DNA from: Parcubacteria group bacterium
Lineage (GTDB): Bacteria > Patescibacteriota > Minisyncoccia > Phycocordibacterales > Phycocordibacteraceae
Direction: 5' to 3'
Assembly (NCBI GenBank): GCA_028286605.1
Contig: JAQBRE010000007.1
Coordinates: 1-44,536 of the forward strand
Length of the DNA: 44,536 bases
The translations under genes and the position numbers were made by a program. The notes beneath the pieces were generated by a model. The model worked only from the letters and a program-made list of their open reading frames with translations, did no database searches and was not told where the DNA came from. The first letter of the stretch is position 1. Each line of letters begins with the position of its first letter. Below, one piece after another: positions 113 to 42,313 of this stretch.

Positions 113-335
113 TCCAATCGGAACAGAGATGGTAGAGATACCACTCATGTCGATCATTCAACAGAGCAATTTGATGAATGGGGAAATGGCATTTATCCCT
201 AAATAATGCACGGACGCCGGAAAAACGCACCGGTGGGTGTTGGAAGTATCAATTGAGCTTCTAACACTCTGAATAGGCGGAACACAAGAGTACGTGTTCT
301 TGGCTCCACTTTCTTTTCTAGATTTTTGCTACGGT

Positions 336-392
336 AAAAGCCCCGTATGGAGAGATTTTCTTCGGAAGATCTCTCCATACGGGGCTTTTTCC
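336..392 (+). terminator. Strong intrinsic terminator ending the 16S transcription unit
   Basis: AAAAGCCCCGTATGGAGAGATTTTC-TTCG-GAAGATCTCTCCATACGGGGCTTTTT: long stem, cUUCGg loop, U tract. Confidence 0.92.
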
Positions 393-34563: not shown

Positions 34564-34704
34564 ATGGCTGCAAAGAAGAAGGCTGCTAAGAAGTCCGTAA
34601 AGAAGACTGCAAAGCGCCGCCCAGCAAAGAAGTCGGTCAAGAAGGCCGCAAAGAAGACAACGAAGAAGACTGCAAAGCGCAAGACTGCAAAGCGCAAGAA
34701 GTAG
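34564..34704 (+). CDS. Small Lys/Ala-rich histone-H1-like protein
   Basis: 'MAAKKKAAKKSVKKTAKRRPAKKSVKKAAKKTTKKTAKRKTAKRKK'. Confidence 0.85.
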   Translation: MAAKKKAAKKSVKKTAKRRPAKKSVKKAAKKTTKKTAKRKTAKRKK

Positions 34705-34713
34705 TTCTACTGG

Positions 34714-34748
34714 AAAAACACCCGCTCTCACGAGCGGGTGTTTTTCTT
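34714..34748 (+). terminator. Intrinsic terminator
   Basis: AAAAACACCCGCTC-tca-cGAGCGGGTGTTTTT. Confidence 0.9.
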
Positions 34749-34775
34749 TATATAGATTGCTATTTGATACACGTA

Positions 34776-34872
34776 CAGAATAGTGCTGAAGAAGGGCTCA
34801 CGGAGCGCGACGGCGCGAGTGGGAGCAAATTTTCAGCAGAAAATTATGCGTACCTTCTGAAGTACTGTTCTG
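34776..34872 (+). ncRNA. Structured element copy A (candidate ncRNA / foldback element)
   Basis: 20-position outer stem 34776-34795/34853-34872 with two mismatches and two G-U pairs; core aligns with copy B at 44/56 positions. Confidence 0.65.
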
Positions 34873-34940
34873 GAAGTGTCTCGCCGTAACGTACCTATTA
34901 TAGGTGCAAAATACCCCTCAAAACGCTATAGTAGGCTGAT

Positions 34941-37472
34941 ATGGCTAACGTATTAGGCAAGATATTCGCCCAGAACCAGTCAGCGACCTTTATTAGAGGC
35001 GGTAAAGGCGTAGTGGATGCTGCTGCGGCGCTTTCGGAGCAGTTCGAAGGCCTTTCCAAGGAGGAACTCCAGGCACGCCTTCAGGTCGTTAAAGAACGCA
35101 CAGACGGGCATCCCGAGAAGGATGCAGATATCGCCGAAGTATTCGCGCTCGTGCGTGAAGCATCGCGCCGCATGCTGAAAGAGCGTCACTATGACGTGCA
35201 GCTTATCGGCGGCCTCGCGCTCGCAAAAGGGAAGATCGCCGAGATGCGCACCGGTGAAGGAAAGACGCTCGTCGCGACGCTCGCGATAACGTTGCGCGCG
35301 CTCGCGGGCAAGGGCGTGCACTTGGTGACGGTGAACGATTACCTCGCACGTCGCGATGCTGCATGGATGGGACAAGTGTATGACTATCTCGGCCTTAGTC
35401 TCGGTGTCATTTCTTCCAGCGGTGCATATGTATATGATCCATCGCACGTGACGCAAGGCGAAGACGAAGCCCGTGATGAGACAGGCTCGTTCCGCGTGTT
35501 TTACGACTACCTTCGTCCTGCATCGAAGAAGGAAGCGTACGATGCTGACATCACCTACGCGACGAACAACGAGCTCGGCTTCGATTATCTTCGCGACAAC
35601 ACCGCGTATGATGCGTCGCAGATCGTGCAGCGCGGCCATCACTATGCGATCGTGGACGAGATCGACTCGATCCTTATCGATGAAGCGCGTACGCCGCTTA
35701 TCATCTCGGGCCCTGCGGCAGACGCAGAACAGCTCTACGATCGCTTCGCTGCTATCGCGCGAACGCTCAATCCGGAAGAAGACTATACGGTTGATGAGAA
35801 ACAGAAAGCGATTCAGCTCACTGACGCTGGCATAACGAAAGCAGAGAAGGCACTCGGTATCGAGAATTTATATACGGAGGGCGGCGTGAAGTTCGCCCAT
35901 CACCTTGAAACTGCCGTACGCGCGCAGGCATTGTTCCATAAGGATAAGGAGTACGTGGTGAAAGACGGCGAGGTCATGATCGTGGATGAATTTACGGGCC
36001 GCCTGCAGCCAGGACGTCGCTGGAGCGAAGGCTTGCATCAGGCTATCGAAGCGAAGGAAGGTCTTGCCGTGCAGAAGGAGACGCGCACATACGCGAGCGT
36101 TACATTCCAGAACCTGTTCCGCATGTATGAGGCGCTTGCGGGTATGACTGGTACCGGCCTTTCTTCGGAGGAAGAATTCTACACGGTGTACAAGCTCGAT
36201 GTGGTGGTTATTCCGACGAACCGCGTCGTGCAGCGTATCGATCACGACGATCTTATCTTCCAGACGAATGCAGGGAAGTACACGGCGCTCGCACGCGAGA
36301 TCCAGGAACTGCAGGAGAAAGGTCAGCCGGTCCTCATCGGTACGGTTTCGATCGAAGACAACGAGGTTGTCAGTCAGTATCTTACGGATGCGAAGGTGCC
36401 GCACGAAGTGCTGAACGCCAAGAACCATGAACGCGAAGGCGAGCTTATCGCGCAGGCAGGCCGTAAGGGTCGCGTGACGGTGGCGACGAATCTCGCTGGT
36501 CGCGGCGTGGACATCAAGCTCGGCGGCGCACCGGTAGACCCCCAAGAGCAGGAAGCCGTCCGACAGCTCGGCGGCCTCGCCGTTATCGGAACGGAACGCC
36601 ACGAAGCGCGCCGTATCGACAACCAGCTGCGCGGCCGTTCGGGTCGCCAGGGCGACCCGGGTGAAACGCGTTTCTACGTATCGCTCGAAGATAAGCTCAT
36701 GCGCGTCTTCGCTTCAGACATGCTCAAGCGCGTCATGGGTACGTTCAAGATCCCTGAAGACGAACCTATTGCCAGCGGCATGATCAGCAAGAGCCTCGAG
36801 ACCGCGCAGAAGCGCATCGAAGGATTCAACTTTGACGCCCGCAAGCAGGTCCTTGCCTACGACGACGTGATGAACACGCAGCGCCTTTCCATATATGAGC
36901 GCCGTCGCATCGCGCTTACAGGCAGTATCGAGGATATAGAGACGGCCATCATGGATATGATCGGTACTGATGAAACAGCACTCGCCGCATACAAGGCGAA
37001 GAAGGAAGAGTTCGGTCCTGAAATATGGAGCGGCCTCATGCGTCGTCTTATCCTGCAGATTACGGATGCATTCTGGCTTGAGCAGCTCGAGACCATGGAC
37101 TATCTGCGTCGCACCGTCTCACTCCGTGCCTATGGCCAGCGCGATCCGCTCATTGAGTATCGTCGTGAAGGATTGATGCGCTTCCAGCAGATGGAAGACG
37201 GTATCGCAGCCCAGATCCGCGAAGCGATTCCTCATGTCATTCCTTCCGATGATTCCCTCATACGCGCACAGGAAGAGAAGACCCGTCGCCAGCTCGTTGC
37301 CGCAAGCGAAGGCGGAGATGGTTCTGATGAACAGGAAAAGACACCGATCGTTAAAGTTGATACGCCAAATCGGAACGATACCGTCACTATCCGCAAAGGC
37401 GATCAGACGCAGACGCTTAAATATAAGAAGGCAGAAAATCTTCTTGAAGAAGGATGGGTACTCGAGCAATAG
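34941..37472 (+). CDS. secA: Preprotein translocase ATPase SecA
   Basis: 'AEMRTGEGKTLVATLAITLRALAGKGVHLVTVNDYLARRDAAWMGQVYDYLGLS', 'TVATNLAGRGVDIKLGG', 'RRIDNQLRGRSGRQGDPG'. Confidence 0.98.
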   Translation: MANVLGKIFAQNQSATFIRGGKGVVDAAAALSEQFEGLSKEELQARLQVVKERTDGHPEKDADIAEVFALVREASRRMLKERHYDVQLIGGLALAKGKIAEMRTGEGKTLVATLAITLRALAGKGVHLVTVNDYLARRDAAWMGQVYDYLGLSLGVISSSGAYVYDPSHVTQGEDEARDETGSFRVFYDYLRPASKKEAYDADITYATNNELGFDYLRDNTAYDASQIVQRGHHYAIVDEIDSILIDEARTPLIISGPAADAEQLYDRFAAIARTLNPEEDYTVDEKQKAIQLTDAGITKAEKALGIENLYTEGGVKFAHHLETAVRAQALFHKDKEYVVKDGEVMIVDEFTGRLQPGRRWSEGLHQAIEAKEGLAVQKETRTYASVTFQNLFRMYEALAGMTGTGLSSEEEFYTVYKLDVVVIPTNRVVQRIDHDDLIFQTNAGKYTALAREIQELQEKGQPVLIGTVSIEDNEVVSQYLTDAKVPHEVLNAKNHEREGELIAQAGRKGRVTVATNLAGRGVDIKLGGAPVDPQEQEAVRQLGGLAVIGTERHEARRIDNQLRGRSGRQGDPGETRFYVSLEDKLMRVFASDMLKRVMGTFKIPEDEPIASGMISKSLETAQKRIEGFNFDARKQVLAYDDVMNTQRLSIYERRRIALTGSIEDIETAIMDMIGTDETALAAYKAKKEEFGPEIWSGLMRRLILQITDAFWLEQLETMDYLRRTVSLRAYGQRDPLIEYRREGLMRFQQMEDGIAAQIREAIPHVIPSDDSLIRAQEEKTRRQLVAASEGGDGSDEQEKTPIVKVDTPNRNDTVTIRKGDQTQTLKYKKAENLLEEGWVLEQ

Positions 37473-39804: not shown

Positions 39805-41226
39805 ATGTCCGACCCCCGTTCAGAATATAAAACGACTATCGGCCTCGAGGTCCATGCCGAGCTCGCTACGCAGACCAAGATGTTCTGCGACTCTCCGAAT
39901 GACTCGGAAGAGACGCGACCGAACCAGAACGTATGCCCGGTCTGCCTTGCGCACCCAGGAACGATTCCTGTACCGAATCGCGAAGCGATTCATCATGTAC
40001 TGCGTGTCGGCAGCGCGCTCGGTTCGAAGCTCGCCGACTACAGCGAGTTCGATCGTAAATCATATTTCTATCCGGACATTCCGAAGGGATACCAGATCAG
40101 TCAGTTCGAATATCCATTCGTCTCCGGCGGTTCGCTCGGCGGCGTTGACATCACTCGCGTGCATCTTGAAGAAGACACGGCGCGCTCTTCGCATGCGAAC
40201 GGCGCAAGTCTCGTTGATTTCAATCGTGCCGGCGTGCCACTCATGGAGCTCGTTACCGAGCCGGTGATTCATGACGCAGAGACTGCAGGCAAGTTCGCCC
40301 GTGAACTTCAGCTCCTTCTTCGCACGCTCGGTGCATCGCATGCGAACCTCGAGAAAGGGGAGATGCGCATAGAAGCGAACATTTCCGTATCAAAGACCGA
40401 CACCTTCGGAACGAAAGTTGAGGTTAAAAACATTAACTCGTTTCGTTCTGTGGAGCGCGCGATCGCCTATGAAGTTGATCGCCAGATTAAACTTATCGAA
40501 GAAGGCGGAGCCGTCGTGCAAGAAACGCGCGGCTGGGACGAAGGCAAGCAGGAGACATTCCATCAGCGCCTCAAAGAGGGTAGCGCAGACTATCGTTATT
40601 TCCCTGAGCCTGATATCCCGAAGATATATCGCTCTCGTATTGCTGAATGGAGCGATGAGGCATTAAAAGCCTCGCTGCCAGAACTGCCGTGGGAGAAGCG
40701 TGCACGCTACACAACGTTCGGCATGAAGGAAGAAGATGCTGTATACGTTGCGAACGACGTAGAGCGCGCGGTATTCTTCGACGCCGTTATAAATGCGATA
40801 GGTGATGACACGAACATGCGTATGCTCGCGGTTAATTATTTCGTATCGGATCTTGCAGGAATTTATGCGAATGCAACGAGTGAAATAAAAATTACACCGG
40901 AAACATTTACAAAACTCATACAGATGATCGGCGCGAACAAGCTTTCATCACGCGGCGCGAAAGACACGCTCGCACTGATGGCTACAGAAGGTGGCGATCC
41001 TGAAGCTCTCGCTACCGCGCATGGCCTCGTACAGGTTAGCGATACAGGCGCTTTGCTCAAGGCCGTTCAGGAGGTTATCGCAGCGAACGATGCGGTGGTA
41101 GCTGAGTACCGAGCGGGCAAAGAAGCCTCTCTTCAGTTCCTCCTTGGCCAGGCCATGAAGGCCACCCGCGGCGCCGGCAATCCTGGCGTGCTCAAGGAGC
41201 TGCTCATCGCTGAACTAAAGAAATAG
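39805..41226 (+). CDS. gatB: Asp-tRNA(Asn)/Glu-tRNA(Gln) amidotransferase subunit B
   Basis: 'TTIGLEVHAELATQTKMFCDSPN', 'NQNVCPVCLAHPGTIPVPN', 'IEANISVSKTDTFGTKVEVKNINSFRSVERAIAYE'. Confidence 0.97.
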   Translation: MSDPRSEYKTTIGLEVHAELATQTKMFCDSPNDSEETRPNQNVCPVCLAHPGTIPVPNREAIHHVLRVGSALGSKLADYSEFDRKSYFYPDIPKGYQISQFEYPFVSGGSLGGVDITRVHLEEDTARSSHANGASLVDFNRAGVPLMELVTEPVIHDAETAGKFARELQLLLRTLGASHANLEKGEMRIEANISVSKTDTFGTKVEVKNINSFRSVERAIAYEVDRQIKLIEEGGAVVQETRGWDEGKQETFHQRLKEGSADYRYFPEPDIPKIYRSRIAEWSDEALKASLPELPWEKRARYTTFGMKEEDAVYVANDVERAVFFDAVINAIGDDTNMRMLAVNYFVSDLAGIYANATSEIKITPETFTKLIQMIGANKLSSRGAKDTLALMATEGGDPEALATAHGLVQVSDTGALLKAVQEVIAANDAVVAEYRAGKEASLQFLLGQAMKATRGAGNPGVLKELLIAELKK

Positions 41227-41327
41227 ATAAAAGCCATTTTGGGGACTACGCAGCGCGACGGCGCGAGTCGGAGGAATTTTCCAGCAGGAAAATATCCGTG
41301 CCCCAAAATGGCTTTTATCTATTTCTT
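41218..41327 (+). ncRNA. Structured element copy B (candidate ncRNA / foldback element); left arm includes the gatB stop codon
   Basis: 27/27 perfect arms 41218-41244 and 41301-41327; 56-nt core; inner stem ATTTTCC-AGCA-GGAAAAT. Confidence 0.7.
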
Positions 41328-41380: not shown

Positions 41381-42313
41381 ATGAATGAACTTACTATCGA
41401 TGGCAAGATATACATCTCGTCTAAGAAGGCCGCTGATCTGACGGGGTATGCGAAGGACTACATCGGGCAGCTTTGTCGTGAAGGTCACGTTGAAGCGCGC
41501 ATGGTCGGTCGCAGCTGGTATGTGCTTGAAACCTCGATACGTGCCCATCGTTTCGGCGGTGATCCGCACGCAACGCCTATTGAAGCTGCGGTTGAAGCGC
41601 CTCTGGCTGTTTCAGTAACGGATGCCTGGGAAAAGCCTACGTATGTTCAAGAAACAGTGCCCTCCATGCTTATTCCAACCGTACAGCGCCCCGCAGAGCC
41701 TGAAATAACGCCTGTAGAAGCGGTTTCTTCTGCTGAATCCTTAACTGATATGCAGGCAGCGTGGAAGGAATGGTTCTCACAGAAGCAAGATACGCTCATT
41801 GAAACGCCTGAAATCATTGATGCACGTGAGGAGGCACACAATCACGAGGACGAGATCGCTCGCAACATTCAGGCATTCAAGGATGCGCATCAGGATATCG
41901 AGGCTTCGGAGCACGAAGTAGAGCCACAGGAAGCGCTAGAAGAGCAGGTTTCAATCACTCCTATACATCATGCTGAGCCAGAGGAGCCAGTATTCGACGA
42001 GATAGAAGAGGAGTCAGAGCCGGTATTGATTCACCATGCTCCAGAAGTATTGCACGTTGCTCGTGTGGAGCAGCCTGTACTAAGCAAGAAAGAGCGTAAG
42101 CAGGCACAGGTTCGTGCCCGTAAGGCGCGTCGTGCACGTACGGAGAGCACTGGAGGATCGTTTGTTCTTCAGGCGTTACTATTCGTACTGATTCTCGTCG
42201 CTATTGTGGTAGCGATTATTGGAACTGGGTATGCGGCGAATTACGTTCGCGTTAACCCTATTCTTCTTCCTGTGTTCGATTATCTCGGTGGAACGAGCAC
42301 ATTCACTAAGTAA
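41381..42313 (+). CDS. N-terminal HTH (MerR/excisionase-like) protein with C-terminal transmembrane helix
   Basis: 'YISSKKAADLTGYAKDYIGQLCREGHVEARMVGRSWYV'; basic stretch then 'FVLQALLFVLILVAIVVAIIGTGYAANY'. Confidence 0.75.
   Translation: MNELTIDGKIYISSKKAADLTGYAKDYIGQLCREGHVEARMVGRSWYVLETSIRAHRFGGDPHATPIEAAVEAPLAVSVTDAWEKPTYVQETVPSMLIPTVQRPAEPEITPVEAVSSAESLTDMQAAWKEWFSQKQDTLIETPEIIDAREEAHNHEDEIARNIQAFKDAHQDIEASEHEVEPQEALEEQVSITPIHHAEPEEPVFDEIEEESEPVLIHHAPEVLHVARVEQPVLSKKERKQAQVRARKARRARTESTGGSFVLQALLFVLILVAIVVAIIGTGYAANYVRVNPILLPVFDYLGGTSTFTK

Follow-up and report, generated by a model that had tools for sequence, protein, structure and literature searches.

In families of the MITE type the ends are conserved and are recognised by a transposase, and in the attC sites of integrons the base is conserved, the tip is variable, and the site is recognised as folded DNA. 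MITEs and other small mobile sequences (e.g., ERIC/IRU, Correia/NEMIS, RUP, and YPAL) are short, non-coding, intergenic, palindromic, dispersed, and patchily distributed between relatives (PMC2229807, PMC10969869). The REP/REPIN sequences, which are mobilised by RAYT Y1 transposases, are extragenic palindromes that may act as folded single-stranded DNA and occur as singlets and inverted doublets (PMC3116915, PMC3733652). Quasipalindrome hairpins are formed by a mutational process and involve no element; template switching, which has no need of a route through G-U pairs, is known to generate perfect stems and to keep them perfect (PMC8794818).

In the 44,536-nucleotide window (the whole stretch of DNA that was analysed), we found two copies, A and B, of a palindromic element of about 80-150 nt with no coding content which resembles each of these systems in part. 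Like the small mobile sequences named above, it is short, intergenic, dispersed, and patchy between relatives, with terminal inverted repeats and no open reading frame, and in one relative (G057), in which it has moved recently, it is flanked by target duplications and its ends match those of an autonomous insertion sequence. Unlike MITEs, the centre of the element is conserved across the phylum, whereas the arms vary between lineages and between copies of one genome and are nevertheless mirrored; the usual conservation pattern of such elements is thus inverted, with the centre constant and the ends varying. Like REP sequences it is an extragenic palindrome occurring singly and as inverted pairs, but its unit of 80-150 nt contains a three-way junction where REP is a hairpin of 20-40 nt, and its copy number shows no correlation with the presence of a Y1 transposase. 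No REP tag (GTAG/CGTC) was seen by eye at the hairpin foot; where CGTC did appear, it was the P2 loop read on the complementary strand. Compared by description only, it is like attC in that the arms are defined by pairing more than by sequence, and unlike attC in that the tip is conserved and the copies are dispersed, with no cassette arrays seen. The template-switch process would account for perfect stems and for multi-base compensatory changes without G-U intermediates, but its substrate in the present case would be a mobile unit whose tip is conserved. Since the defining features tested were found only in part, we place the element outside the MITE, REP, and attC families, and it is best read as a previously unnamed, MITE/REP-like family of small palindromic mobile DNA in Patescibacteria. 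In the literature searched on repeats and structured RNAs of Parcubacteria, CPR, and Patescibacteria, we found no description of it.

Structure, host range, and covariation of the element

Copy A lies between a short basic gene, for which the Pfam search gave no family, and secA (Table 1). Sequence and fold agree with the original prediction that its 20-nt arms pair with two G-U pairs and two mismatches, the latter forming a tandem G.A/A.G step, and they add a further helix outside these arms (GATAC 34766-34770/GTGTC 34876-34880). The arms close a tip with two hairpins, P2 and P3, and P3 reads GCA-AATTTTC-AGCA-GAAAATT-(A)-TGC, the bracketed A being bulged. Copy B (41218-41327) carries a tip of the same type inside a perfect 27-bp palindrome. 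The ungapped alignment of the two cores, identical at 44 of 56 positions (copy B stretch 41248-41302), was reproduced, and the 17-mer AGCGCGACGGCGCGAGT matches exactly in both. The outer arms were said to be unrelated in sequence and yet each paired, which is borne out, the arms of B being perfect 27-nt mirrors unlike those of A. Against dinucleotide shuffles, RNA folding gave z = -7.0 for copy A and z = -9.7 for copy B, and in neither case did any shuffle (0) fold as well.

Table 1. Coordinates of copies A and B and of neighbouring genes in the window
Feature	Position	Strand	Evidence
Short histone-like (basic) gene preceding copy A, then intrinsic terminator ~34718-34745	34564..34704	+	sequence; orthologues in G356, G357
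Copy A, whole foldback including outermost helix GATAC/GTGTC	34766..34880	+	sequence, fold
Copy A, P1 left arm	34776..34795	+	pairing with 34853-34872
Copy A, P2: outer stem CTCAC/GTGGG, inner GCGC-GACG-GCGC (34805-34816)	34797..34823	+	fold, covariation
Copy A, P3: stem, AGCA loop 34835-34838, bulged A 34846	34825..34849	+	fold, covariation
Copy A, P1 right arm	34853..34872	+	sequence, fold
secA, downstream of copy A	34941..37472	+	Pfam
gatB, upstream of and overlapping copy B	39805..41226	+	Pfam
Copy B, P1 left arm, holding last codons and stop codon (41224-41226) of gatB	41218..41244	+	
Copy B, core: P2 inner stem 41253-41264, P3 41273-41297	41245..41300	+	sequence, fold
Copy B, P1 right arm, perfect 27-nt mirror of the gatB end	41301..41327	+	
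Weakly helix-turn-helix-like gene downstream of copy B	41381..42313	+	Pfam, below cut-off

The genome itself (G000) has five copies, two of which are those in the window. Copy C lies between ftsZ and trxB, and copy D between hsp20 and a gene resembling a transglutaminase (genes named by reading their translations). The fifth, of the copy B type, is on a 4.1-kb contig (G000:C4, L275) that also holds a second gatB (82% protein identity); this second gatB and its element probably come from a related strain mixed into the bin. The outer arms of C and D are common to both and parts of their outer ends match copy A, while copy B is unrelated. Elsewhere in the window (333-392), an almost perfect inverted repeat of 28 nt, interrupted by a gap of 4 nt, follows the 16S rRNA end and is perhaps a terminator or processing hairpin.

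Further copies are present in related genomes. A first covariance model, built from four copies, found the element in 39 of 59 close relatives (0-41 copies each), and a broader model built from 114 sequences found it in 32 of 294 genomes across the Patescibacteria phylum and, at E up to 0.1, gave 60 copies in one close relative (G050). An exact scan for the P3 hairpin in 85,488 species returned at least 119 stretches; among the 80 matches listed, the titles precise enough to give a group all point to Patescibacteria (Kaiser-, Nomura-, Taylor-, Adler-, and Wildermuthbacteria, Parcubacteria), the remaining titles reading only 'bacterium' or 'uncultured bacterium'. The family is apparently specific to this large group with very small genomes. 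Rfam, in line with the earlier failure to recognise a known family, gave no match for copies A and B (Rfam 15, gathering threshold), for the copies in L001-L004 (E<=5), or for 17 loci of a second form, class II (gathering threshold). A phage or virus origin was rejected: 13 viral contigs hold the 17-mer, none (0) with the second hairpin, and the P3 pattern had 0 viral matches.

The constant part of the element is an 80-nt unit in which a 12-bp proximal stem closes a three-way junction with two hairpins, P2, which has a GNCG loop in most copies, and P3, which has a bulged A and in most copies an AGCA loop, and the loops, the bulged A, and the tandem G.A steps are conserved across the phylum. 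Across 113 distinct sequences, 94.1% of cells pair and all 29 pairs change on both sides (885 cells with double changes vs 252 in shuffles), an overwhelming covariation measured on an alignment that was fitted to the structure and hence leans towards it; sliding the partners, a clear control, abolished the signal. In RNA helices, compensatory change is usually taken to proceed via G-U pairs. Such pairs are less frequent here (0.5% of pairs in P3, 1.1% of those in inner P2, and 3.3% of those in P1) than in T-tailed hairpins (4.5%) or in 48 tRNAs from the same loci (6.7%). When orthologous copies were compared, 90 P1 pairs had changed, 75 of them from Watson-Crick to Watson-Crick and 11 on one side. 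The scarcity of G-U together with the pair-by-pair rewriting of arms points to templated DNA copying and not only to selection on RNA. The proposed selection on the fold stands in part: conserved loops, bulge, and linkers speak for it, and arm changes with hardly any G-U intermediate speak against it. Since templated palindrome repair also yields such changes, covariation alone is no proof of a functional RNA here, and this observation emphasizes the caution that strong covariation at dispersed palindromes is not in itself evidence for one. With dozens of paired arms at orthologous loci and compensatory replacement almost without G-U intermediates, the family offers a natural test bed for template switching.

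Insertion, mobilisation, and persistence

The closest relatives found (G356 and G357, gatB protein 78-80% identical) have 0 copies, and all four sites examined (gatB, ftsZ, hsp20, and upstream of secA) are empty in them. The empty ftsZ site has an ordinary terminator instead, at the empty hsp20 site two convergent stop codons lie about 6 nt apart, and the site upstream of secA is empty in both relatives. A possible 6-bp direct repeat at copy A (ACGTAC) is the sole candidate target duplication in the own genome; clear target duplication was found in G057 only. There, a recently amplified subfamily (94-100% identical over ~145 nt) is flanked by direct repeats, mostly 7-bp TNNNNNA, with a mean length of 6.5 nt vs 2.6 with permuted flanks (maximum 4.0 in 2000 permutations, most sites being read on both strands). 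The suggestion of a mobile foldback element is thus upheld by empty orthologous sites, by 7-bp target duplications in one relative, and by up to 60 copies per genome.

The ends of the G057 elements are shared with an IS982-like element (PF13612), which itself interrupts an IS66-like transposase gene (L099:208-2453). That the whole family is an ordinary MITE of IS982-type transposons is nonetheless very unlikely. The shared ends, the 7-bp duplications, and the matching insertion sequence in G057, with similar ends at several other loci of the order, are what such an account predicts, but the transposase is present in only 4 of 59 relatives and absent from the own genome, and in G000, G052, and family f86 the conserved centre is bounded by other ends. 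The account holds for the G057 subfamily and is contradicted as a general explanation by the absent ends and transposase elsewhere; IS982 as a general mobiliser was rejected on the distribution of its transposase. Mobilisation by RAYT was likewise rejected, copy number being uncorrelated with Y1_Tnp presence: no Y1 transposase (PF01797) was found in the own genome, G047, or G052, which have 5, 28, and 32 copies.

Fourteen groups of loci are common to congeners at 64-98% DNA identity. With so many shared loci, copies persist long, as a functional element would, although some of these loci may reflect independent insertion at the same gene end, as with gatB in G000 and G020.

Arms as mirrors of the local sequence

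Many copies in G052 have a near-identical 82-nt unit and unrelated, perfect outer arms. In one copy (L356) the unit is flanked by CAAAGTAAAAGAG and CTCTTTTACTTTG, and in another with the same unit (L357) by CAAAAGAAAATAG and CTATTTTCTTTTG. At gatB, the core lies in opposite orientations in G000 and G020, each mirroring its own gene end; the G020 arms (GGACGACGTAAAG and CTTTACGTCGTCC) mirror that gene's different end. Of the 72 elements lying no more than 45 nt from a stop codon, 10 mirror that codon in full. The gene end being coding sequence, it is likely that the far arm was derived from it, and since C and D share arms, arms can travel with the element as well as be rewritten. One G052 subfamily has a short, variable paired stretch between two conserved parts, a distal end (TTTGC..GCAAA) and the proximal unit, a pattern not expected from target-derived arms alone and one which repeated rewriting of the arms would give. 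An apparent superfast evolution of arms at L264/L270 was set aside, the flank identity being mosaic (28-100% along the locus), such that recombination or re-insertion is possible.

The arms probably mirror each other because one was copied from the other, and we consider it fairly probable that the element is a non-autonomous dispersed mobile DNA of the MITE/REP kind with a conserved three-way-junction tip and host-templated arms. Such an element would insert mainly just beyond stop codons, in either orientation, and would fold back on itself in single-stranded DNA, where one arm, at times host flank including the gene's own stop codon, would template the other. Outer arms would thereby be kept as Watson-Crick mirrors through DNA copying, with templating at insertion or in later replication (quasipalindrome template switching). 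Mobilisation would be in trans, in G057 by an IS982-type transposase whose ends the arms would have acquired and elsewhere by another putative enzyme. The data show that the family exists, that its matches with a named group are all Patescibacteria, that it inserts, that it is placed at gene 3' ends, and that its locus-specific arms are mirrored; from these patterns we infer that the templating is of the snap-back kind, that the tip is recognised in its folded DNA form, and that mobilisation is in trans outside G057 as well. The conservation of the tip (loops, bulged A, and G.A steps) needs a reason beyond arm repair and counts against this explanation, as do the long persistence of copies, the negative searches of the own genome for Y1 and IS982-type transposases, and the clear target duplication in G057 only. 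As a tentative and rather doubtful extension, the element could be a self-written palindrome, the tip of which would be recognised as folded single-stranded DNA by a putative Patescibacteria enzyme, each round of insertion or replication snap-back-copying host flank into the mirror arm, such that every copy would be fenced by a private, locus-specific, perfect inverted repeat.

Placement at gene ends and the class II form

In a survey of 100 class-I elements with crude gene calls, the 3' end of the right neighbour faces the element in 40 (35 of these within 40 nt, most 12-18 nt beyond the model), and that of the left neighbour in 23 (14 within 40 nt). Class-I elements sit in both orientations at gene 3' ends, with the conserved loops on one strand, an arrangement that fits poorly with a role in the transcript of the gene itself and well with DNA landing beyond stop codons. 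Copies C and D end in a T-tract and a terminator role for copies like them is possible; many other copies, read by eye, are without one. It is on this evidence that a functional structured RNA, or a processing or terminator element at gene 3' ends (e.g., a bidirectional terminator or an RNase III substrate), with its fold under selection and its mobility incidental, has to be weighed. Positions conserved between species, the tight placement beyond stop codons, occupation of the ftsZ terminator site, the T-tracts of C and D, the strong covariation, and a tip conserved across the phylum all suit such an RNA. We regard it as unlikely in view of both orientations relative to genes with the loops on one strand, G-U pairs that are nearly absent, the many copies without a T-tract, and copy numbers of 0 to 60 per genome with none in the closest relatives.

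In class II elements P1 is reduced to 7 bp and P3 is extended, and a third hairpin often precedes them. They lie beside or within tRNA genes (L165, L172, L177, L137, L146, L184, L186, and L330), at the end of rplK, named from its C terminus (L132, L153, and L169), or beside or within another common repeat, and they are surrounded by direct as well as inverted copies of the tRNA or gene end. These copies look as if made locally, and the arrangement resembles site duplication at tRNA 3' ends. A folded-DNA recombination site (e.g., an integron attC or a Xer/integrase attachment site) is favoured by such tRNA-end copies and by the sequence-variable, well-paired arms, but in the present element the tip is constant and not the base, and the copies are dispersed over several kinds of insertion site and form no arrays; of the explanations considered, we hold this one to be the least probable.

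Adjacent divergent pairs of elements, about 30-80 nt apart and similar to REP doublets, were observed at L345, L346, L347, L135, L108, and L139. A second mini-element, some 55 nt long (CCA - stem - CTTATGAGCGRAGCGAGTTAG - stem - GAAGTACTCxTGTGGTG), was seen as a small mobile hairpin nested in the P3 loop, in P2, or in a class-II copy at L272 (G002:C20, element near 1000-1140), L258:2108-2243, and L113 (upstream of 1953, minus strand). LOOT RNA (RF03000) occurs at L163:5018-5146 in the RAAC4_OD1_1 genome. The ftsZ 3' regions of four genomes (L249, L252, L234, and L254 in G018, G059, G006, and G001, respectively) carry another recurring foldback, its outer motif (GCGCTCGCTC ... CACTCGCTTGGTAGTAA) resembling the tandem G.A feet of the present element.
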